NCBI GenBank assembly: GCA_006384855.1
Contig: VCJN01003103.1
Coordinates: 57,171-121,170 of the forward strand
DNA: 64,000 bases
Origin: Tetraselmis striata
Taxonomy: Eukaryota > Chlorophyta > Chlorodendrophyceae > Chlorodendrales > Chlorodendraceae
Direction: 5' to 3'
This document shows, piece after piece, positions 6,320 through 61,465 of the stretch (its first letter is position 1; every line of letters begins with the position of its first letter). The notes below the pieces were generated by a model. The model had not been told where the DNA came from, ran no database searches, and saw only the letters and a program-made list of their open reading frames with translations. A program made the position numbers and the translations under genes.

Positions 6320-7890
6320 TCAGTTGCGGCCAGCCGTCTGACCTTGCGTCGTCGCAGTTACCGCCGCCGTGGGAGGTTCTATATTGTAACCCCGGCCGCC
6401 GAGGGGGCATGGGGAGGCATGCACTTATCGTCATACCCGTGATGGGGTTACACGTTACTGGTTACACGGTACTAGTGTCGACCAGTCAGATTAAGGGCAA
6501 AGTGAGTACAAAGTAATGGGCATGTCGACGACTGTCTGCATGTCGTACCTTAACTGCTGCTTGACTACTGCTACGCATCATTATTCTGCGCGCGCCCTCA
6601 TTCCATATGGAGATAGCGACTACTAGTACATTGATTACATGAGCTAGCAGCAGAATATATGGGATAGCGACTACTACATTTCTCCCAGTATGTCGCGTCG
6701 TCTGCCACAGAGCGGTGCCCATACGATGAGTACTTCAGCGCTTGTTTCCTCGTGCGGACGACCAGTCGTTACTTTAAACCAGAATTTAGTTATTAATAAG
6801 GATTAGCTAGTCGCTATATAGTCGCTAGCGACTATCGACTTTCGACCGTCAGTGTCGTCGTCGATATGATGTTTTTTTATTTCTGCTATATGGCAGGATG
6901 GGGTACTGGTACGAGTACGGAGGAGTACGCGGATGCATGCTGCACACCGGTTCCCTGGGTACTCGCAAAATGAAATCCTCCCGGGGTTAAAGCTGTGTAT
7001 AGCGGGGTCACAATCCTGAGCTGCAACTACCGAAACGAGTGCGAATAGTGATTAGTATCCGGTTGATACAGTCAAATATAACGTCGTTTGATCAAAGCTC
7101 AGAGCCCACGTGACCACCCGTCTCGCCAACCCATCCCGCCCCACCGATGCCAATCGAACACACCGGCCGGCATCATCACGCGCATACCGCGGTAGCAGCG
7201 CGCTAACCTAGGCATATGGTGGCGTTCATGTGCCTTGTCTTGTGTGTCGCGGGCAGGGATGGGGCTGGTGGCGGGATGATGAGGGAGAAGCGCGAGCGGT
7301 CACGTGCTAATATTACGCACGTAGCGCGTGCCACGTAGCCAAAAAGCGTTGCCAGCTACACATCTCGGATTTGAGACCCGGTTACGGTCTTCAGAAACGA
7401 GTACCTACGCGAACCGGTGTGTGTACGAGTAAGGAGGTAATACAGGCGTCAAAAGAAATGAACGGGTAGGTCGTTATCCGTACCCATGCTGCCCGCCACA
7501 TGTCGCCTAACTGATGGCCGCCCTGTGGGCATATATCCTCATCTGCCCTCGAGCTAGCCGCCCCTATCTGTAGTAGTCACACCATCAACGCGATGGCGTA
7601 TGGTGGACATATACGCATTTACATATAGCATTGGTGAAATGCTAGAGCATCTTGCCAGATGCACATGCGTTACATCGCATGTACGCGGTGTACATCTAAC
7701 TATCTAGGGCATTTCTCTGCAATACTCTAAAAACATGCGCGGGTATGTTGTGGCTATCTTGCGTCTCCAGCCCATGGCCGCGCTTGTCGCATGCGCTTCG
7801 AAAATCAGCGATACCCGCCCGGTAGTGCGCCCCGGAAAAGCAAAATTGCCGGTTAGCAATGAAATGCGCAAAATCGCAGTACATAAGGGC
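6320..7890. other. intergenic, no gene seen
   Basis: No coding frame with introns or motifs could be supported. The DNA is of mixed composition with many CTA/TAG trinucleotides around 6480-6850. I see no tandem repeat or terminal repeat. Confidence 0.5.
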
Positions 7891-7891
7891 A

Positions 7892-8405
7892 TAGTGTCGC
7901 TGTAAACCGTGTGCGGTACTAAGTCGCACCCGCACCCGCGCCCGGTAAGTCCGCGCTAAGTCCGCGCACTGTGGTTCGCGCGCGGTGGGCCCGCCTCACT
8001 ACGAGGAAATGTGCCGGCGAATCACACATGCGCACGGGCGTGGATGCGCGCGTGCAAAGAGCGTCGCTTAAACGCCCATGTTGCAACCCGAAAGTGACAC
8101 TCACGCTTTGTTTCGTTATACGTACCCGCGGTACCAAACGGCTCACTGTACCGCGTGGGGCACCGATTTGAAGTTTGGTTGTAAAAACCCGTTCATTACT
8201 TCTGAGAATTGTAGTGGGATGGGTTGTTACACATTTTGGCTTACTTTTAGCGTTGGGCGCGTGCCACTTGCATGACATACATCGTGCTATAATGATGATA
8301 ATATACTGCCATGTGACATTAAAGCGGGTTTCCCTCTTTTAATGCCTCTTGCGCATTGTTGCAAGTGCTATAGGAGAGCAGTGCAATGAGAACGGACCAT
8401 ATACA
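7892..8405 (+). repeat. dispersed repeat R, left half (interrupted copy)
   Basis: This matches 60661-61250 with clear similarity. Shared blocks include the CTAAGTCCGCGCAC region, CGCATGTGTGATTC-type blocks, the CATGACATACAT block and GTGCTATAGGAG near the right edge. The match stops at CCATATA (about 8397-8403), where the 11.7-kb element begins. The other half resumes at 20155. Confidence 0.75.
8400..8405 (+). repeat. target-site duplication TATACA, left copy
   Basis: This hexamer directly precedes the left inverted repeat and is repeated at 20149-20154. The empty-site paralogue has TATAGA at the equivalent place (61253-61258 region). Confidence 0.6.
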
Positions 8406-8431
8406 ACAGTAATTAAACCTATTTTGCACCG
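8406..8431 (+). repeat. left terminal inverted repeat, 26 bp
   Basis: It pairs with 20123-20148 at 23 of 26 positions. The mismatches are near the outer end, and the inner 16 bases are identical. Confidence 0.8.
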
Positions 8432-8878
8432 CAGAATTTATTTTGCAATGTAGGGTTTGGTTATACCCTAGTTTCGTTGGCTACTATCAGTACTTAAGAC
8501 TCACGGGTGGTGTAGCTAGGGTTTGTATAGTGCGCGGTGGCATGGCGGCATTCATCAGCGTGCACAACAACCGTGACGCATATCCAATGCTGGTTTTGGA
8601 GCATTTTGTACAAAGTGGGACAAAGTGGAGGGAAGTCAATGTTTATTATGATGATTAAATCCATCGCCTAGCCACAAGACGTTGCTAATAGTTTACTCGT
8701 TGAGCATCCCCAACTCAAGCAAGTCCTTCTTCGTGGTTGCGTTAGTTAAACTTGACGACTCCGCCAGGTTTGCGTTGCGCTGGGGTGGTCGACATGACGT
8801 GGACGCGGTTGTTTCGTGGCTTGCTGATTTGCCACCCAGTTTGCGCATATGTCTGCACGACTTGGACGCTTTTATGTA

Positions 8879-11801
8879 TCACTTCTTTCTGACCATGGTG
8901 CCGTCCTCATTGAACACCTCGCGACTTCCCGACGCGTCGTGGATGGCCTTCGCGTACGACAGAGGGACGGCTTCAATAAGCTTCTAAGGAAGTGTCATGC
9001 ACTTCTCTCAGCTTGTGTCAACTGGCTTCTTCCCTCCTTTTGTCTGCGCGTACAACCATAGGGGCATGAGAGGTTTGCCCTTTGCATCGGCATGGAAGGG
9101 CTCGTATATGGCCACGGTCAATGTGTCCTCGGTAGTCTCGCGCGACTTCACAAGCCCGATGACGAATCTCAACTCCCAATCACCAAGAGTTTCAGGGCAC
9201 TTGTCCTCCTCATGCGCCTAATGATGGCCAAGACCATGAGCTATCAATGTCAGTCCCGGGCGAGACGGCATACCAGTTCCGTCCCAGTTGAGACAAAATA
9301 ACAAGCAAGGCAAATGCTGAACCAAATTGCATTTGTTCCGTAAAGGACAAAAATGACAAACAATTGGACTCACATCGGAGACGTCGATGACAACGAGGTT
9401 CGTGCCCTTTGCATCGTTGGGCGATGTGTTGTCATGAAGCCGCTCCTTGGCGCCGGCGTGCACTCCCTGGAAGGCGCTGCCATCTTGGAGCACTTGAGCT
9501 CGAACCCCGGCTTCAATGCGAGCGGCTTCGGCATTGTTGAGGTCGGCGTTGGTAGCCATCGTGCTGTGACGTGCCTCAACGGGCAAGCTCAGCCCGTGCT
9601 CGCGCAAGAAGTCGTCAACTTCCTCTTTCCGCTGCGGCCAAAACTCGGAGAAAGCTGCCGAAGGAGCAGTTTGCATCTCATCCAAGTCGTCCAGCATGTT
9701 CTTCCAGCTCTCGCGCTCGACAGGGGAGAAGTGCCACTGGACAAACAAATCCGTGATGTACGACCTGGCCTCCTCAGTCATCCAAGTACCTCTGGACCTT
9801 CAGCGCGTCGGGCTTCGTCTTGTCGCAGAGAGCGTACAAAAGGGGTCGGCGCGCACGAATCTCGGGCGTCCCAGTTGGCGCGCTCTTCAAGATATGCACG
9901 GGCTCGGAAAGCGGTGTGTTGGACCACAAGGCGGTGCGCAACGAGCCGCCGGACGCGGCGGCGTCATCACGCGTGAACTCGAATTTGTATGGCTTGCGGA
10001 TGTCATGGATGTGGTCTTGGAAATGGGACCTTAACCACTCAGAGAAGTCGAGGGAGAGTGAGAGGTCTGCAATCTCCGGAGTGGGCGAGAATGCCTTCGC
10101 AACCAAGTCAAGAAAAGCCTCGACTGTGTAGGCGGAGCTGCGATATAGCGCAAGTCGGACTGATGCGCCCAAAGATCATGTCAACCCGTTCATGAGTGTG
10201 CCCGACAGGCGAGTAGACCAAATGAATGACGTCGCAAATGCCGATAGATAGACACAAGCCAATTGCAGAGAGCCGCCACGTTCCTGTTCTTGTTCTCCCT
10301 GACGGTGTTATCCATCTGAATTCTGATGTACGGAATCTTTTTGCCACAGAGTTGAATTTCCTGCATCGCAGATCAAATTTCAGCAGTCCACGGCCACCGG
10401 ACCACTTGGGCGAATCAGTTGGTAGGACAACGAGCTGACCTTCATTATCGTGACCCATGTCAGAGTGCAAGTCGTGGATGAATCATGGGAGATGATGTTG
10501 GTGTAGTAGTAGATGTCGTCTGGGCGGTAGCCGTCGTACTTCACACATGCGAGGTGGTATTTGAGGAGCATGTCGGGCTTCACAATCTTGGGGATGCGAA
10601 CCCAGTGAGGCAGCATGGTCTTCGCGGAGACCATGCCATCAATTTTGAAGAAGAAGAAGTTCCAATGGCCAAGGCGCGACTGGAAGACGGCGTTGTTGAG
10701 ATTCCTTCGTTCCTGGCGCACTCTCTCGAGGTGGACCTGCTGCTCGGCTTTGAGTTGACGCCTCACAAGCTGCTGATGTTGACGGTGCACCTGACGTTCC
10801 TCGGGCGTCATGTCCTTTGTGCACATCTCGTGCGCTAGGTCTCTGAGCGCTGTGCCCGCCGCAAATCGAGATGTCATCAGTGGGACGAAATTGGTATGTC
10901 ATCAGTGGGACGAAATTCGTTCTGTCATCAATGGGATGAAATCTGTATGTCATCAGTGGGACGAAACGGGCCTTACCACGGAGAATCGCGTTGTCGTCCT
11001 CAGCCCACGACTTGTAATAGTAGTAGACGCAAATCTTGGTCATCCAGGGAGGCAAGTGCTTCTTGAAGGTCTCGCTGTTGCCATCATGGAAAGGCATGAT
11101 CTCGACATGACCGAGGTCATCCGAAAAAAAGTGCTCCACGAACATCCGCACATGCTCCTTTGATCCGGTTTGTCTGCTCTCGTACTGCTTGCACTGCATG
11201 ATGCACGTGGGTTCGTTATCCACCACCGATCGCTGGATCACGAGCCGTCTGCGCTTCGAGACCTGATGCAGGACTTCCCATGCACGGCCGCATGTGTAGA
11301 TGGGCCCTCGATGATCGAAAGAGCGCAAGTAATCAGCGTGATCTAACATGTAATCGACCTTGTCGGATGACGAATCGTAGCCACCCCTGAGAACCTAAGA
11401 CGGTCAAAGGAGCGGTTATGCTTGCCGGAGTATACGGTCAACGCACGGTCCATCACGGCATCAACGAGGGCCTCTCCGCACTGAGTGTGTAGCTTGTGCA
11501 TGCACTTTCGCGAGCAGCACGGCGACTGCTCTCCACCCTCCTTGGCGAGCATGAGGCGGATGTCGTCCCGATAGGTGCGCTTGCTGATCAGAGACGATCC
11601 CTTGCCAGTCTCGCTATCGGCGACCTCGTCGGAGCCCTTGCCCTATGTGTACTTTCTTTTCTCAACCTCGTTACGATCACAAGTTCGCGCGTCGCAATCA
11701 CGCGAGTACCCGCCGCGGCACAAACACGGCAGTAACGTGACTGTTGTGTCTGACGCGCCGGATCCTGGAGAATAAGAGGCAATGCTTTCGATCTTCGCCA
11801 T
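8879..11801 (-). pseudogene. DUF7869-like transposase/integrase candidate, multi-exon, damaged
   Basis: The start codon is at 11801 (MAKIESIAS). In order I see: a CCSRKC motif with a following basic stretch (about 11500); a long region around CIMQCKQYESRQ; an intron (10972 to about 10855) holding the minisatellite; a segment with FFFKIDGMVSAKTMLPHW; then QMDNTVRENKNR (about 10310) and VGHTHERVDMIFGRIS (about 10200). The CC..KC, DN..ENKNR and GHTH-(D/E)-(V/I)-D..F motifs are the pattern I associate with DUF7869 proteins, which have an RNase-H-like integrase look. Later exons read AHEEDKCPETLGDWELRF (about 9220-9000), and an exon near 8985 ends at the TGA at 8879-8881. Damage: in-frame TAG at 11643-11645 (unless spliced), a shift near 11395 and a shift near 10230. 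It is divergent from the plus-strand gene. Confidence 0.65.
10872..10972 (+). repeat. 25-bp minisatellite array 1, about 4 units, intronic
   Basis: Units contain GTCATCAGTGGGACGAAAT with small changes. The array lies wholly inside an intron of the minus-strand gene (donor GTAAGG at 10972 region, acceptor CACAG at about 10855). Array units read on the plus strand, antisense to this gene. Confidence 0.85.
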
Positions 11802-12445
11802 GATGCAGCGTCGGGCGAGTGATGGCGGTGGAGGACTGTGTTCCGTGGTGAGAAAAAAGTGGCGGCGGGTGACCGTTATCGGACGGGCCGTTCACTGGGT
11901 GCATAATATCAAACAACGGGTCAAAATAATTCAACGACCTGATTAAACAAAAAACATTTTCAGTACTGGGCGAGAATACATGATGCCGTAAAGACAAGGT
12001 TTTGTAAATCGTACTACGGGAAATATATAGGAAATATTTCCGGAGTAGTATTTCGTGTTATTTCGCATTTCTTTCGTATTGCGTGAATAGTTATGTTCTA
12101 GTATGTACACCAGAATCCAATCCAAGGAATATACCATTGCGTAAAGGAATATTATTGCCACGCTACTGTACTGTCGTACCCTTAAGATTCTCGAGTAGGG
12201 GATGTATTATCTACCAGTAAGAGTAATATATATAATCGCTATAGTTTGTCATGTAGTTTCGTTGCGGTGCAAAATGTATGAACCTGATGGCGACGACGAT
12301 GTGCACTATAGAGCGCGAACGCGCGCGTATGGTCTAGCAGGAGTCAGAGCGGCGGCAGACGGAGACCAGGTCATTTCCACCTCTCCCTCACCGCTGCCCA
12401 CGCAGAAACTCGCTCATCTACCGAGCCGACCCAGCTACCGCCAGA
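11802..12445. promoter_or_regulatory. divergent intergenic region between the two element genes
   Basis: The two start codons (11801 minus, 12446 plus) face away from each other across 644 bp. The middle (about 11940-12260) is AT-rich. A bidirectional promoter is inferred from layout only; I see no certain TATA box. Confidence 0.35.
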
Positions 12446-12578
12446 ATGGCGCCGAAGAGGAGCGAGCCTACCAAGGGGAAGGAAGACAACGACGACGCCA
12501 CCCCAGGTGAGTTACGCGCGCGTACAGTAGCTGCCGGCCTGCTCGACGCGTGATGCGGCCAGATCTAGCAAGTTCGGT

Positions 12579-13000
12579 TAGGGTTCCCTCCAGATGCGGT
12601 GTAATCTAGGAACGTTCGAGCTGGATAGTCAGACGAGTGGGAATAGAATCCCAAACGAGACGTCGAGCGGTATCATGGTCCTGCACGGTAATATTACGTC
12701 CCGTCGAGGCCACCGCTGCTGAACCAGTGAGGATGCTTATATTGGTGGTGGGCGGGGGTGGGGGTGGAGGGTGGCCAGGTGGACCTTTTACGGTTAGGGT
12801 TCCCTCCAGACGAGATATAATCTAGGCCCGATCTAGCCGGAATGCAAACGAGGGGGTAGGAATAGAAGCACGAAGGAGACGGGCGGCATCACGCTTCTGT
12901 TAGTAATATTTGTCCTTGCGGTCGTATGGAGCAGTGAGAATTCTTGGTGGTGGACGGGGGGGGGGGGGGGGGGATGGTGGGCAAGTGAAGCTTTTACATG
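12579..13000 (+). repeat. diverged tandem duplication, about 214-bp period, in first intron
   Basis: Both units start with GGTTAGGGTTCCCTCCAGA (12579 and 12793). They continue with related segments (GGAATAGAA, a GGTAATATTAC-like block, then a G-rich stretch). The G-rich stretch of unit 2 has grown to a near-pure G tract (12957-12973). Confidence 0.65.
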
Positions 13001-13011
13001 TACTGCCTCAG

Positions 13012-13820
13012 AGCCATAATTATCATACTGACATGGCGTCATCAGATAATCTTGTCATCGGATAAATACTCGCACCGGAGTGTGCCACGTCGTAACTGAT
13101 GACATGCCCCGCGCCGCTATTTGATGACAGACCCGCGTGTATACTGTACACTGAAATCGAAATCGAAATGCCCCCGTGTACAATATACACGCGTCAGCAG
13201 GTAGCGGTCTCGGCCGGCCAGATTTCATTACATTTTTGCCTAGTCCACGCTCTTGCCCGGCACGCGCCGACGCCATGGCAGGCTCCACCGAGCGATCTCC
13301 ACAACGGACACCCAGGCGGGGCGTACCCACATAGTGACCCCCCTCCCACCACTACGGAGGGTCATGTTGCCCCGTTGTTGTCTTCGTCGGTGTACGTTTC
13401 GTCTATGTGCGGTGTGTCCATTATGTCCAGTGCGGCCCCGGCAAGGGCCAGCATCCAAGGGAACGCGCTGCCCTGCTACTGCGCGTTGCCGTAGGTGCGT
13501 GCAAGCCCTCCTACTACGTCTAGGCAAAGCTGGGATGCTCCATGACTGTCCAGTCTGAATGGGTGGGAGGGACGGGGCGGGAGACACGAGACATGCCTGT
13601 GTGTGGTAGAAAAGACTGTGTTTGCGGGCGCGATGGCGGCGGCCAAAGTAGAAGCGGCGTGCGATATCTGATGACATGCCAACGAATTTGATGTTTGTCC
13701 GTATGAATCATGTCTCTTGTCATGCATTAACGCTGTCTACGTGGCAGCCCACGGTGCGCGAACGTAAGATGATGACAAGGATTATCTGATGACGCCATGT
13801 CCGTATGATATGGCTTTCAT
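13012..13820. mobile_element. foldback/MITE-like insertion with about 80-bp inverted repeats
   Basis: The segment 13012-13090 is the imperfect reverse complement of 13743-13820. The core GACATGGCGTCATCAGATAA is present on both arms, with GCCACGT at the inner edges. No protein is evident between them. It lies in the long first intron (12507-14206) of the plus-strand element gene. No clear target duplication was found. Confidence 0.6.
13134..13193. other. strong hairpin, 18-bp arms, 24-nt loop
   Basis: CGCGTGTATACTGTACAC (13134-13151) pairs with 13176-13193 with one mismatch. The loop contains three tandem GAAATC-like repeats. Confidence 0.7.
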
Positions 13821-13899
13821 ACACATCAGCCATCAAGCGTGGTTTAATCTCATTATGAAGCGCAGTACATGAGGACATAACATGCTTAAACCGCAAAAT

Positions 13900-14175
13900 A
13901 GGTATGTCATCAGTGGGACGAAAACGGTCTGTCATCAGTGGGACGAAATCAGTTTGTCATTAGTGGGACGAAATCGGTATGTCATCAGTGGGACGAAATC
14001 GGTATGTCATCGGTGGGATGAAAATATATTTGCCATCAGTGGGACGAAATCGGTATGTCATCAGTGGGACGAAATCGGTATGTCATCAGTGGGACGAAAT
14101 CGGTATGTAATCAGTGGGACGAAAATCGGCATGTCATCATTGGGAGGAAATCGCCGTGTCATCAGTGGGACAAAA
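13900..14175 (+). repeat. 25-bp minisatellite array 2, about 11 units, intronic
   Basis: Tandem copies of GTCATCAGTGGGACGAAAT plus a CGGTAT spacer run head to tail up to about 30 bp before the acceptor GCGCAG at 14206. Unit variation is low. Confidence 0.9.
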
Positions 14176-16030
14176 ACTTTACTTTCGGAATCTGATTTAT
14201 GCGCAGGTCGAAGATCAACGCGGACATCAAAATCTACCGAGAAAGCAAGAGAGTTCGACGCGCTCGGATCCTTGGTTGGGAGAAAACAGAAGGCGTCTTC
14301 ATCAGTCCACGAGGAACCGGCGGTGAAGAAGAGCCGTGAAGCTTCCGCTTCTACCGCTAGACTAGGCGTTGAAGCGTCATGCAACCCCTGGAAACCGAGC
14401 CTTTTACGCGGCAGAGTGCCGCCTTACAGCACGCACTCGCAAGGAGAAAGATCTGTCGCCGCTCTTTTGAGGGCCCGAATCCAGAGCGGACAAGTCCTCT
14501 CAGATACTCAATTCTGCAGACAGCGCGAAGGTTGATCGATTACGAAAAGCTCATGCAAGCTTACTTTCAATAGGGTCCTTGCCTCTCCAATGAGATGAAT
14601 TGCTTTCGTTGTGAGATCTAAATATAATGAAATTGCGTTGTTTTACAGGTTCGAAAGGACGCGCGGAGGAGCCACCGCCGCGTCAAGCACCAAAGGAATC
14701 CAAAGGGAAAGAAAAGGTTTCCGAGACGCGACTGTGGCTTCATGTTGCGATTGTAAGTGTAAATCCTTGCCCGCAACAAATCCCGGAAGTTTGTGAGTTG
14801 TGGTGACAACCCAACAGGTCGTCAATGGGCAAAGGCAACCGCGTCGCTATCGGCGAGTAAAGCGGGATACCCGGGTAAGAAAACACCGGCTGGATTTTGA
14901 TGTAACATGAGTGTTTTTCAGTAGTTGATCGTGATGCCCATACTGCAGGTGTGTTGTGTACTCTCTACTCCCCGACTTCTCAAAGCTCTTCCCTGGCCAA
15001 GGGGACGCCTCAAGTACGAGAAACAAAGCCAATGCCGGAGCCCGAGCCTGAACCTGAGCCGGAGCCCGAGCCTGAACCGGAGCCCGAGCATGTACCGGAG
15101 CCCGAGCCCGAGCCTGAACCGGAGCCTGAACCCGAGCCCGAGCCTGAACCAGATCCCAAGCCTGAACCGGAGCCCGAGCCAAAGCCCGAGCCTGCGCCTG
15201 ATCTTGAGCATGAGCCTGAGCCTGAACCGGAACCCGAGCCCGAGCCCGAGCCGGAACCAGAGCATGAAGGGGCCCAAAGAAGAGTCCCTGAATTTCTCAG
15301 TGTCGGTACGGATGAAGACCTCTTCTGCACGGAAGAGGACCAAAGGCAACGGGCGGTAGTGAGGCGCTAGGAAGCCCTCGACGTCACTGGCACGCATGGA
15401 CCCGTCAGGAAGACAAAGATCATGAAGTATGCAAATTATGACGACTTCTACGGCGTCGGTGTTGTGAGGACTGAGGATGCTGACGCCTACATCGACTTCA
15501 GCAAAAGGAGCTGGACCATCCACTGGTTTACAAGTCTTGGCAGTCAAGTGCACATCTATCTCTACCCGGAATCGCACTCGTCCAACCCCTTGACCGGCAA
15601 GGATTTCTTCGATGATCCGACAAGGCCACTTCTCGCGTGCGCGGGGAAAATCTTGGATGCCAGGATGGGGGAATCCGGACACTACGAGGTAAGGAAAAAA
15701 TTACACATTTGAGGTTCTTGAATTCACATGTCGTTGCAAGTTTTGATATTTCCCTGCGTGCCCATGCCGACTTCTGGAACCTCATCGCTTGGAGTTGAGC
15801 AAGGAGATGAGGATCTCAGTCGCCTTTGAAAATTTGCTTCTCCACGCAATCCAGGCGCCACTCTCATCCCAGCCGTGGTTCTACGCATGGTCCTTGGTCG
15901 AGCGCAGAGTGTTGGCGCAGGTTCTGAAAGGCTTTGTTATTCGAGAGATCACCGCCTTTGACTTGGCCAACATTGACGTTGATTTAGTGAACGCTCTACC
16001 AATCAGCGAGTTCTGCGCCATCCCGCCTGC

Positions 16031-16173
16031 ATGGAATGGCTTCTCCAAAACCGGTCATGTCGACTGGATCTCTTACGGCCACCTCATAATCGAGATTGCT
16101 GATGGAATGGCTTCTCCAAAACCGGTCATGTCGACTGGATCTCTTACGGCCACCTCATAGTCGAGATTGCATA
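16031..16173 (+). repeat. 71-bp exact-type tandem duplication in an exon
   Basis: The segment beginning ATGGAATGGCTTCTCC at 16031 is repeated at 16102 with one difference (CATAA versus CATAG). The period of 71 is not a multiple of three. Skipping one copy joins WISYGHLI to VEIAYPEVKTSQGGD in one frame. Confidence 0.9.
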
Positions 16174-16924
16174 TCCAGAGGTGAAGACTTCTCAGGGTGG
16201 TGACATCAACATGTTATTCGCCGACAGAGTCAACCTCGTCACCGACAAGGATACGGGGCTCCCTCATATTTCAGCTTCCTATCCGATAAGTTCGTCGCTC
16301 CACCGGCGGAATTTGAATTCCGTTCTCCCAAGCTACAAGACTGCAATATGGTAGCGCAAAACAACAAGGTAAAAGCCCATCAATTTACATGATCCAATGA
16401 TCCTAAACAATGTACAACGCGATTCTGGCATATCTTCCCTTTTTTTACAGAGGAACCCTTCCTTGTCCGCCGAAAATTTTCAGTGTCCTTCCGCCCGGTA
16501 GTCAAGCAACAAGTTATCCCCTGGTACGAGCCCCTCGCTTTGACCATGGCCAACTTCAAGGAGCAAGTGGCGACATTCGAAGGCGGGGAGGCGCCGAAGT
16601 TGGCGGATGCAGGTTCCTACGAGCCTAAAGTCGACATCATCGTCAAGTACTTGGACTCTGTGGACGCGCGACACGGAAACATCGACGGCAGCCATAGACG
16701 GGAGGCGAAGCGCACGGTCAAATTCAACTACCAAGACACCTACTGGAACAACAAAGGCATCCGCTACACGTCGGACAAGATGTACATCGGCCGCTCATCA
16801 CCGAAATTCTGCCGCTACATGTCGATGAAGCTCAATGAAGCTGGTCACACCGTCGTCGGGGACACATCCATGCACAAACTCCTGGTGAGTGACAATACCC
16901 AATTCCTCCCACACAATTATCCAT

Positions 16925-17075
16925 TAGCTATCATCGGGACGAAAACGGCCTGTCATCAGTGGGACGAAAACGGCATGTCATCAGTGGGACGAAATTTGTC
17001 TGTCATTAGTGGGACGAATTTGGTGTGTCATCATCAGTGGGACGAAAATATGGCTGTCATCAATCTGTCATCATC
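16925..17075 (+). repeat. 25-bp minisatellite array 3, about 6 units, intronic
   Basis: Same unit as arrays 1 and 2, more diverged, between the donor GTGAGT at 16886 and the acceptor TTCGCAG near 17130. Confidence 0.85.
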
Positions 17076-18559
17076 GTGCGAAATTGTTATGTTGATTAAG
17101 ATTCGGATTATTTGCATAGAACCTTCGCAGATGCTTTGAGAGCTGGCAGGCGAATCCGCCTGCACAGCGACGAGGGGGGGGGGGGGGAATTGTAGAATTG
17201 TAGAATTCGTTTTAGTACTTGCTCTTTTTCTGGTTTTGACTCGGTTGTTTTTTGCGCAATGCCTTCGAGCCACTTGAGCAGCTTTCTGAAGCCTACCGGC
17301 ACGTTCAGCTTGGGGTACGATGATGGAAGGAAGCCAGAGGAAAACTTCAAGAGTTGGCCGCACACTACGATGGAGAACTCAATAGACTCGGGAGTCTCAA
17401 CCATTGTCGACCGCTTTCTCCGAAGGAGCAGAGAGCATTTTACGAAACTATTCGGAAGACTATCAATGCAATCTTCGATGACAAGAAGTACGGCTTCGGC
17501 AGATACCGAGCTCACTTCCGAGTCGCCGTCATGAATGTACGTCGCGACCTACACTATCCATTAACCCCCATCAAAGAATATCATTCCCATCTGAATACCG
17601 AAGCCGTGTTGCTACTCAAGAAGCTGGCTTTGGCCCCAAGCTACCCTGGCTTGATGAGCCGTCTCTTGCGAAGCTGAGCGATAGCGCGGATCTTCCTGTG
17701 GAACAGATGTACTTGGTGGTCGGCTTGCTCATCCAAGGCGAGCACTACGCGACCCCAAACCTCTACGAATTGGTGCAGGACGTCAAGGATGCCGGGGACG
17801 ATGACCCCATGGTTATTACTCACACCAACCCGGAGTGGCTGGCGAAGATCGAGACCTAGAGGTTTCGCGATCTCCTTCGTCGGGCGAGCATCAAGCTCAT
17901 GAATGACATCGACCCGGCCAAGGGCATGAAGCCAATCCAACTGCTAACGCCGGACGAACCGCCGGGAAGAGGGGGGAAAAACCTCTCAGACCACATCATC
18001 GACCATGATGTGCCAGCCAATGTGTCGGATGAGCAAGCGGCCGCTTGCCTTGACGCACTCACCATGTTCCAAGTCAAGGTTGATGACCTCGGCCGAACTG
18101 GCTTCCCCAAAAAGTTCACGGATTTGTTCGAAGGTTCTTATCGCTCCGGTCCTTGGATGGTCTTGATGACCCCTCCTAAGATATGGGAAGCCATGATGTC
18201 CGCCGACCGCCTCACCCCAGCACCGGTTCGAGAGCACATCGCAGCCACAAACGTTAGCATCAAGAGTCAGGCGTTTCACATCAAGAACCAAATAATGCCG
18301 GACTTGGTGATTTCCTTCTTCACCCAGTTCGCTCTATTGACATGTGCTCCCCAGCTTCTCGCGATTTCTGCTCCAAGGTATTCTTGAGGACCCGTGGATA
18401 TCGATGAAGGTGAAATATCGATCCGACAAATGATTTCTGAAAAAAAAGTTTCATTGTGAGCTATTAATCCGAATCGGTTTTTCAAACTTCAGGCCACGAA
18501 ATTTCCGGTGATGCCCAGAGGCGAAGAGGTCGGATCTAAATAAGACGATGACGTCTTTT

Positions 18560-19880
18560 TGAGGGTTGAGCATGGCAAGACTTGCATCGTGGAGGGCGAT
18601 TTCAAGGCTCCCGCGACAATAAGATTCGTCGCGGAAGCCATGTCGGGAGTTAGTTCCACCAAGGCCACAGTCTTCATTGCCGACGCGCTATTCGGAGCTG
18701 GCTCGCACACCTTGGGACTCGAAGGATGCTGCGTCGGGCACGGACGACTTCAACGACATGTTTGCTTCCGCCAGGCAAGATACAACCCCCCCCCCCCCCC
18801 CCCCCCCCCCCAATCATAGGCGTAGATGACTGTGCCTTCATTTATCTCATTCCAGATTTTCCCCGCGCAGGCAGCTGGATATCCTGACTGGATCTTCTGA
18901 CGTCCACACTGCTCTTGATGGGTGCCATTTCTTCATTTACCTCTCGGACCAGCAGCTTGGATCCGAAATCATAGCCGTAGAAAAACAAGCTGATGACCTC
19001 ATTGATCACGTCTTGACTTATTGGGCCAAAGACTGCGGGAGGAGGATGGGCAGTTCTCTGCGTCACGACGCTGAGTACTACCTCTACGTCAGGAAGGTCC
19101 CACCCAGCATCGTCGCTGGCAACATTTGCGCCTTTGATCCCCGCATGTGAGATTTGATTTGTGGAACGTAGCCGGCTTGTTTTTAGCATCACTCTGAGCC
19201 GGTTTTGCCAGATTTTCCATGATTTTCCAGATTTTCCATGTCCATCATGCTTGGCCATTTCAAAGACTCCACGAAGTTGAAGGACGAGAGCATGCAGACC
19301 GTGAACAAGTACCAAAAGCCTATCGCGCTCTTCTCCAAGCACTTGAAGATGGCGGCAACACACGGGACAACACTCGTCGACGTCACAGCCGGAACCGGGA
19401 CAACCGCGGTGCGTGAGGGGTGCAACCCGGGTGAGTGACAAAACAAAGCGATTAAACATAAAAGTTAACGCCTCATGCGGTTTGCCACGCCTGCACGTCG
19501 CTGCGGCTTTTTGTGTGTTGTGGGACTGCTTTAGTCCGGACCACTCGTTCCCACATAGGAACCTGAAGACAATCCTCATTGACAACCAGAAGACGCAAAT
19601 CGCTGGGATGAAATCCAGGTTGAAGTCATGGTTCAAAGAGAAGCCCCGGAACGAGACTCAGAGACTGCGTCCATATGACTTCGAGAAGTGGCCGGGTCTA
19701 CCCCTTCCAATGACCATGGAAGAGCAGCGGGAGGAGCTAATAGCGGAGGAGAAGAGGAGACACAAGGCGGCAAAGCGACGAGGGGATTACTTGGTCGAAG
19801 ATTCTGATGATGATGATGATGATGAGGATGAGGATGAGGATGAGGATGAGGATGAGGATGAGGATGAGGATGATGAGTAG
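18560..19880 (+). pseudogene. DNA amino-methyltransferase-like module with acidic tail
   Basis: Exons read: FIADALFGA (about 18690), then, shifted by one frame, TPWDSKDAASGTDDFNDM; after a C tract (18787-18811), LDILTGSSDVHTALDG, LTYWAKDCGRRMGSSLRHD and YYLYVRKVPPS to a GTGAG donor at about 19149. The next exon has YQKPIALFSKHLK and VDVTAGTGTTAVREGCNP, then after an intron ILIDNQKTQIAGMKSRL. The order is a DPPY-like position (here ADALFG), WD, a W.K strand, KP..L and an FxGxG-type SAM loop (TAGTGTTA). This is the layout of beta-class N6-adenine/N4-cytosine methylases. The catalytic DPPY is not intact. The C-terminus is a run of Asp/Glu repeats ending in TAG at 19880. The junction at 19437-19556 does not keep frame as I read it. 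Confidence 0.6.
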
Positions 19881-20122
19881 TACACTTTTCCACGAAATTA
19901 ACGACTCTGATGTTTTGTCCCAGCTTGGACGGAGGTTCTGCCCCCGACGGCACAACCCACTTGTAACTATCACGTTTCCTTCGCTCTTTTGATTTGCCCC
20001 AACTTCAACGGAATTGTTTTCCGACTTGGCACAAATGAACCAATCGGCCTTTGTGTTAGCTATCAATCCCACTGCAGACCCTATACCCTAATTTAGACCT
20101 ATCCACAATGCACCGCTTGCCT

Positions 20123-20148
20123 CGGTGCAAAATAGGTTAATTTACTTT
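20123..20148 (-). repeat. right terminal inverted repeat, 26 bp
   Basis: Reverse complement of 8406-8431 with three mismatches. It is followed directly by TATACA (20149-20154). Confidence 0.8.
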
Positions 20149-20345
20149 TATACACGTACTGCCAAACATGCATCAGGTTGTTGTGGCTACGCCCCTGGCC
20201 CTCCCGGCTTCACGGCCTATTGTCAACTTCTTGCTCGATGTTCGCTTTCACTGCTCGCTCTCACTCTGTCGCTCGCTGCCACTGCTCTCTCGCTGTCACT
20301 ACCACTCGTCGTCGTTGTCAGTCGATGTTATTACTATTGCACCTA
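20149..20345 (+). repeat. dispersed repeat R, right half
   Basis: Begins with the second TATACA and then matches 61275-61462: GTTGTTGTGGCTAC, CTCCCGGC.TCACGGCCTA and the TCGCTGTCACT-rich stretch. It continues the match interrupted at 8405. Confidence 0.75.
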
Positions 20346-60645: not shown

Positions 60646-60660
60646 AGATCATTAGATAAG

Positions 60661-61465
60661 ATCATTGTGTGGCTGTAAAATGTGTGCGCGGTGCTTACTC
60701 GCATCCGCGCCCGCTATATGCCACGCTAAGTCCACGCTAAGTCCGCGCACCGGGGTTCGCGCGCCGCGAGCGGCCCGCCTCGGCACAAGGAAGTGTGCCG
60801 ACGGCGAATCGAACATGCGCACGGGCGTGCGCGCGTATGGGGCGCGCCGCTTAAATGCGGCGGGGGGAGGGGGGGCGCCCGAAACTAACAATGGTGCTTT
60901 GTTTTCTTATTCATACACCCGGTACCGAACGGCTCGTTGTAACGGCTGGGGCACCAATTTGAAGATGAGTTAGCATCATGTTCGTTACTTTTGACGCCCG
61001 TACTGGGATGATGGGGTGTTGCGCTTTTTGCCAAACTTTTATCTTTGGGTGCGCGCCACTTCCATGACATACATTGTGCGACACGAATGCATTTTGTATG
61101 TTCAACCCTTGCGCGATCGCCCCCAAGTAGCCGTATAGTGATTTATAAATAGATTCTAGTGCGGGGTATGGAGCCGATCGATGGCGCCCCCAAGCATTGC
61201 GCTTATTATTTTTGTAAGTGCTATAGGAGCGCAATGCAATGAAAGCGAACCATATAGAAGGCCAAATAACATGCAGTGCCAACAACAACTACAAGTTGTT
61301 GTGGCTACACCCCTATCTGATCCTCCCGGCCTCACGGCCTACCATCTACTTGTTGCTCGCCGCTCGGCGTCACTGCTCGTTGTCAGCGCTCGTTGTCAAT
61401 TTGTTGCTCGCTATCACTGCTCTCTCGTTGTTAGTGTCACTCGTTGTCGCTGTCACTCGCTGTGA
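60661..61465 (+). repeat. dispersed repeat R, uninterrupted copy (empty site)
   Basis: Left half matches 7892-8403 and right half matches 20155-20310. The junction falls at 61250-61276, where the 11.7-kb element is absent. No protein is recognised in it. Confidence 0.75.

Follow-up and report, generated by a model that had tools for sequence, protein, structure and literature searches.

A two-gene DNA transposon family of Tetraselmis striata that carries a predicted DDD transposase of the DUF7869 type and a methyltransferase-domain protein

The stretch of DNA analysed here, referred to as the window, comprises 64,000 nucleotides of the green alga Tetraselmis striata (assembly GCA_006384855.1, contig VCJN01003103.1, positions 57,171 to 121,170) and contains a DNA transposon with Terminal Inverted Repeats (TIRs), whose features are listed in Table 1. 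With a probability of about 85%, this transposon represents a two-gene family, in which a protein bearing the domain DUF7869 (gene 1) is the predicted DDD transposase and a second protein, which bears a methyltransferase domain (gene 2), likely modifies or binds the DNA of the element.

The ends of the window copy were set against those of ten other copies that were fetched from this genome, which start with AACAGTAAT..ACCTATTTTGC or a near-identical sequence, finish with its reverse complement, and have lengths of 11.9-13.9 kb. An initial annotation, made from the letters of the window alone, had defined both ends to within a few bases, and its boundaries proved right to within one base; the 26-bp inverted termini it described (23/26 identical) are the same match, minus the first base, as the 24/27 counted here over 27 bp.

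The Target Site Duplication (TSD) was evaluated in 21 copies, i.e., the window copy, the ten fetched copies, and ten others read at their ends only. An exact 4-bp duplication is found in 12/21 of these copies against 2/420 mismatched-pair controls, and this is the only length between 2 and 9 bp that rises above its control: duplications of 3 bp and of 5-9 bp each occur in 0/21 copies, and 2-bp matches, the length of the TA duplication of Tc1/mariner elements, in 2/21, with no excess over the control (36/420). The target of piggyBac and Kolobok is TTAA, which is absent among the 12 exact duplications, and some of these are not AT-rich, including GTAC, TAGG, TGGC, TCAC, and AACG. As only the 4-bp length exceeds the control, the duplication of the window copy is ATAC. 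The hexamer TATACA, initially reported on both sides, is present at the boundary drawn at that time, but it was rejected as a 6-bp duplication (0/21 copies with 6 bp), and the T and the A that flank ATAC within it are chance matches.

The search of the genome with the termini, as suggested in the initial annotation, revealed many copies that share these ends. A 23-base terminus has 318 + 296 matches at up to 3 mismatches (reversed-pattern control: 0), and as these 614 matches count both ends, they would correspond to some 300 elements if each is two-ended. A 37-mer specific to the right end has 140 + 117 = 257 matches (control: 0), and the genome search for DUF7869 yielded 548 first-look candidates; the 150 that were scored all exceed the cut-off. 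At least 19 of the first 100 left-type ends listed have a listed right end no more than 20 kb away, with a spacing of 11.0-14.0 kb in 15 cases, 10.5 kb in one, and about 7.3-7.5 kb in three. These last three pairs (C70:47941-55284, C200:44625-51992, and C48:260041-267557) are probable internally deleted derivatives.

The flanks of the window copy are the two halves of a host repeat that was in place before the element inserted, and which can be matched to positions 60650-61463 of the same window, where the left side of the match reaches within one base of the duplication and the right side restarts about 20 bp past it. A detailed alignment of this copy crosses the junction within a few bases. 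Of the two observations that, according to the initial annotation, would have refuted it (no further copies with these termini, or an alignment that breaks elsewhere), neither was made. The claim that the empty site itself lies here (at 60661-61465) holds in part, given that this is a whole copy of the flanking repeat, but it is a diverged paralogue (about 72% identity), one of many, rather than the pre-insertion allele. When the joined flanks were used as the query, 40 of the 63 first-look candidate places in the genome were scored, and the junction was crossed without an insert in 38 of them, the remaining two being the window's own halves. One of these matches (C123, 78%) was aligned in detail, and runs through the junction except for a gap of 6 bp. 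The inverted ends, the 4-bp duplication, and the uninterrupted sites all agree with the initial identification of a TIR DNA transposon.

In the less-decayed copies, gene 1 has four exons, which encode a DUF7869 protein of 956 aa, and it terminates near the left end, while gene 2 terminates near the right end, so that their transcription is divergent. The spliced model of gene 1 scores 149.5 bits against DUF7869 (PF25273; curated cut-off 26), and the frame found in the window scores 29.6 bits on its own (6.4e-7), which confirms, in both, the DUF7869-like gene recognized initially. The predicted fold is RNase H-like, nearest to those of the mariner transposases and the retroviral integrases, and three invariant aspartates (D385, D468, and D510 in the numbering of protein P0002, with a spacing of 83 and 42 residues) are found at the right places of this predicted fold. 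The DUF7869 protein is thus read, from its modelled structure, as the predicted DDD transposase of the element. The DUF7869 profile had 0 matches to the PDB sequences up to an E-value of 10, and the third protein search (cut at E 1e-20) returned 77 proteins, all of them Tetraselmis models. In the public models P0003, P0006, P0008, and P0050, DUF7869 is fused to a kinase, ubiquitin hydrolase, PF02348, or phage-integrase domain; these fusions are likely to be annotation read-through from adjoining genes.

Gene 2 has at least ten exons in a less-decayed copy (C2110), on the strand opposite gene 1 and heading to the right end. The last four of these exons match N6_N4_Mtase (PF01555) at 9.6e-7, with 29.4 bits against a cut-off of 26.7, which upholds the methyltransferase-like gene proposed initially, though PF01555 was not recognized in the window's own open frames (Pfam scan of 19 frames). 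Of the 16 database models of gene 2 that were scanned, four reach PF01555 with an E-value no higher than 1; the first, P0065, has 24.8 bits, below the cut-off. A search in which the best 7995 candidates by shared words were scored found 44 database relatives, all of them Tetraselmis models. The match to the NCBIfam CcrM model is weak (0.0012-0.0013), and the C-terminus has a single weak match in the PDB, to an rRNA methylase (E 0.87). The gene resembles the bacterial beta-class N6/N4 methyltransferases (PF01555, CcrM) in motif I and in the order of the domains, and differs from them in its motif IV slot and its long N-terminal extension. Motif I reads DVTAGTGTT in 11/11 copies, whereas the motif IV slot, the consensus of which is [DNS]PP[YFW] in N6/N4 methyltransferases, reads DALF in 10/11 copies and is gapped in the other, with no DPPY.

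The several hundred residues that precede the methyltransferase domain have only one Pfam match, of low complexity, and the AlphaFold model of gene 2 is unusable (mean pLDDT 31.7). A GSHRREA motif prompted the idea of an N-terminal ParB-like nuclease, which was rejected, as it found no support in Pfam or NCBIfam: neither PF02195 nor its kin was found in three cut-out pieces of gene 2, and the genome search for PF02195 matched only four other places. One contig (G000:C1010:88683-100724) has a ParB match together with the genome's strongest PF01555 match (a 637-aa open frame), and is possibly bacterial or viral DNA in the assembly. A second repeat family of the same genome (L069:4251-4937 in C761, and L070 in C2707) carries a relative of the gene 2 methyltransferase (29% identity, 2.6e-20) in which the motif IV slot reads DSNYG. 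Two copies share about 13.2 kb, and 40 of 83 first-look candidates were scored, several of them being 100% identical over 801 bp; the family has a clear boundary on the right but not on the left, and it contains no recognized transposase.

The two genes recur together in this genome. Exons of both are present in 10/10 fetched copies. From the genome's 104 methyltransferase matches, the 60 of the gene 2 type were picked by eye; for 34 of these, DUF7869 was scored within 16 kb on the opposite strand, mostly near 9.7 kb, and 27 lie about 0.75 or 1.18 kb from a listed right end.

Over a stretch of 5.6 kb, C2110 and C1513 show 99.2% identity, and the family has therefore moved recently. The window copy, by contrast with these, is old and broken, with an identity of 88-90% over the left 2.5 kb and about 79% over the right part; its gene 1 has 4 stops and 6 frameshifting indels, its gene 2 has 4 stops and 25 frameshifting indels, with one of the exons not found, and neither protein can be encoded whole. 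Relative to C2110, gene 1 is intact, i.e., without stops or frameshifts, in 4/11 copies (C2110 included), and gene 2 in C2110 alone, by construction, a reference which itself slips frame at one junction that was omitted from the model. Over 12 pairs of copies, dN/dS is 0.19-0.39 in 11 and 0.63 in one for gene 1, and 0.37-0.68 for gene 2, that is, gene 1 is the better conserved of the two and gene 2 is under weaker constraint. The synonymous divergence between C2110 and C1376 is 0.011 in gene 1 and 0.046 in gene 2. Since the value is lower in gene 1 and a duplication is missing from some copies, chimeric elements may have arisen through exchange among them.

The pairing of DUF7869 with a methyltransferase looks to be no local accident, but the mark of a wider group. 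A DUF7869 scan of one genome per prokaryote species returned nine loci, eight of them in a bin titled Trichormus and one in a bin titled Arcticimaribacter. Three of the eight Trichormus-bin contigs (142, 204, and 433) have PF01555 above the cut-off on the strand opposite DUF7869, in a second gene that reads IADIPYG and LDLFSGT, and the pieces of the second gene from L080 jointly score 2.1e-7. On the three contigs, this gene is divided at common positions by intron-like gaps of the type GT..AG, and the cyanobacterial-bin contigs are therefore probably eukaryotic; they are likely to be plant DNA, plausibly from the fern host of that cyanobacterium. The same three contigs have inverted ends of about 33 bp which start with AACA and finish with TGTT, and an exact 4-bp duplication (AACA) flanks one of these complete elements, while the other two have none. 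The related loci showed no termini of the Tetraselmis type; their ends differ, though they likewise follow AACA...TGTT. The DUF7869 protein of a contig in a marine bacterial bin (L081, contig WTJN01000124.1) is up to 43-50% identical, in pieces, to that of Tetraselmis, and closer to it than the other relatives are; its source is probably a marine eukaryote.

Gene 1 of Tetraselmis matched all nine related loci, whereas the tblastn search with gene 2 found nothing at 1e-3. Gene 2 and the related second gene share three collinear blocks, with E-values of 2.6e-3 (GSH..EA), 0.17 (motif IV), and 1.7e-4 (motif X/I), against 0.7 in the reversed control, and pairwise blastp of the assembled gene 2 frames across the lineages gave 0.001-0.88. 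Based on the weak collinear blocks and the PF01555 matches, and given the empty tblastn search, the homology of gene 2 between Tetraselmis and the related elements is regarded as likely rather than proven.

In the transposition mechanism proposed here, the transposase would bind the AACA...TGTT ends, excise the element, and join it to a target whose two strands are cleaved with a 4-bp stagger, in a “cut and paste” manner. The methyltransferase protein, whose activity and role are inferred, would act on the DNA of the element, for example, by allowing it to escape from silencing or by marking its ends. The window copy would be mobile, if at all, only with a transposase provided by another copy.

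The Sola superfamily, reportedly introduced by Bao et al. in 2009, is the nearest of the named groups. The available part of PMC10741241 gives it a DDD transposase, a 4-bp TSD, TIRs of 11-1124 bp, and a length of mostly 2-9 kb, with some elements >15 kb, while the dictyostelid Sola2 elements described in the consulted section of PMC3627910 combine short TIRs and 4-bp TSDs with a transposase of 888 aa and with Fanzor1 as a passenger gene. The present element, with its 4-bp TSD, short TIRs, predicted DDD transposase of 956 aa, and unrelated second gene, fits all these ranges, and the chances that it is an ordinary, already named Sola member (Sola2-like), with the methyltransferase gene as acquired cargo, are only slightly short of even. 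This likeness is drawn from descriptions of the group, and the TSDs found here, such as GTAC, TAGG, TGGC, TCAC, and AACG, contrast with the AT-rich Sola2 TSDs (AWWT and similar) published in that section, as does a methyltransferase-domain gene with Fanzor1. The recurrence of the methyltransferase partner in a distant lineage is also more than would be expected of one-off cargo.

It is somewhat less likely than not that the methyltransferase domain has no catalytic activity and instead contributes to the transposition complex by binding DNA or as a structural component. With DALF in place of DPPY, the enzyme of Tetraselmis may have lost its activity or changed it, and the weaker constraint on gene 2 points the same way, but motif I is retained in all 11 copies, the DIPYG version of the related elements looks competent, judging by its motif, and the second Tetraselmis repeat family has DSNYG. 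Far less credible is the idea that DUF7869 is a passenger nuclease and that mobility is supplied in trans, either by a transposase encoded elsewhere or by gene 2; the long part of gene 2 without a recognized domain would leave room for this, but DUF7869 has the predicted transposase/integrase fold with its invariant D-D-D at spacings of 83 and 42 residues, and its gene is the better conserved. Polintons have 6-bp TSDs, a length which the TATACA of the initial annotation had suggested, and a degraded Polinton or Polinton-like virus would also account for a length of >11 kb in Tetraselmis, in whose genomes integrated relatives of TsV-N1 have been reported (PMC10120064, in the portion available). 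This origin was rejected as extremely improbable, given that the duplication is of 4 bp, that a Pfam scan of 19 frames of the window and of both spliced genes revealed neither a capsid nor a polymerase B, packaging ATPase, or protease, and that neither protein has a relative among 2.9 million viral contigs.

The two-gene transposon proposed here can also be compared with other elements that carry genes related to DNA methylation. The accessible part of PMC12730594 describes fungal DNA transposons with TET/JBP genes and transposases of the EnSpm, hAT, KDZ, IS3EU, and Harbinger types, which are likewise eukaryotic, have TIRs, and encode an enzyme that acts on DNA methylation, although theirs is a dioxygenase on 5-methylcytosine, and the present one a predicted adenine/cytosine-amino methyltransferase that accompanies DUF7869. 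Mariner-2_PGv and Mariner-1_OLpv, from algal-virus records (PMC3627910, in the section consulted), also combine a transposase and a methyltransferase within one element, but with a Mariner transposase and an endonuclease, methyltransferases of the Methyltransf_26 or C5 type, and viral carriers. Neither DUF7869 nor its pairing with a methyltransferase was found in the literature searched, as far as its texts were available, a scope that does not extend to Repbase, to the 2009 paper on Sola, or to most journals behind a subscription.

The element also contains arrays of a minisatellite with a unit of 24-25 bp, which is expanded in the young copies and open in several reading frames; its 24-mer has 10,050 matches across the genome at up to 2 mismatches (control: 0).

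Table 1. Features of the transposon and of the host repeat in the window (positions of the window; strand as +, -, or. for none).
Feature	Position	Strand	Basis or remark
Element, TIR DNA transposon	8405..20149	+	11,745 bp; termini in common with 10 fetched copies
Left terminal inverted repeat, AACAGTAATTAAACCTATTTTGCACCG	8405..8431	+	Shared with other copies
Right terminal inverted repeat	20123..20149	-	24/27 identical to the left one
Target-site duplication, left copy, ATAC	8401..8404	.	4-bp duplication statistics over 21 copies
Target-site duplication, right copy, ATAC	20150..20153	.	4-bp duplication statistics over 21 copies
Interrupted host repeat, left half	7877..8404	.	Match to 60650-61463 and joined-flank search
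Interrupted host repeat, right half	20154..20328	.	Match to 60650-61463 and joined-flank search
Host repeat, uninterrupted diverged copy	60650..61463	+	About 72% identity to flanks
Gene 1 (predicted DDD transposase), exon 1 equivalent	10978..11801	-	87.6% to C2110 exon
Gene 1, exon 2 equivalent	10440..10862	-	91.3%; first 120 nt of exon without match
Gene 1, exon 3 equivalent	9374..10360	-	91.1%; later part of DUF7869 at about 9960-10251
Gene 1, exon 4 equivalent	8697..9215	-	94.4%
Gene 2, likely start (MAPKRSEPTKGKEDNDD..., resembling MAPKKNEPAKDKEDKDD of database gene models)	12446..12520	+	Database models
Gene 2, middle exon equivalents, whole span	15062..18409	+	68-89% to C2110 exons; exon 4 not found
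Gene 2, middle exon pieces	15062-15639, 15774-16103 + 16105-16368, 16451-16884, 17274-17533, 17625-18409	+	
Gene 2, N6_N4_Mtase C-terminal exon equivalents	18500..19808	+	81-88% to C2110
Gene 2, C-terminal pieces	18500-18797 (motif IV slot DALF), 18876-19143, 19241-19408 (motif I DVTAGTGTT), 19497-19808	+	
25-bp minisatellite, gene 1 intron	10871..10966	.	TRF
25-bp minisatellite, between genes (within gene 2 if the start at 12446 is right)	13896..14171	.	TRF
Third array of the 25-bp minisatellite unit, gene 2 intron	16930..17062	.	

Finally, DUF7869, a domain of unknown function, gains a concrete job from this family, that of a predicted DDD transposase, together with a 4-bp duplication and exactly defined ends. 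It is possible, if doubtful, that the elements form an unnamed lineage of superfamily rank, in which a DUF7869 DDD transposase is combined with a methyltransferase by which the element marks its own DNA (a self-methylating transposon), the pairing having been kept from the green algae to the plants or passed between them. Transposons are usually the victims of DNA methylation, and a large group with a DNA-methyltransferase-domain gene of its own would raise the question of how transposons and methylation, of either adenine or cytosine, interact, both in an alga that has many near-identical copies and in a probable plant.

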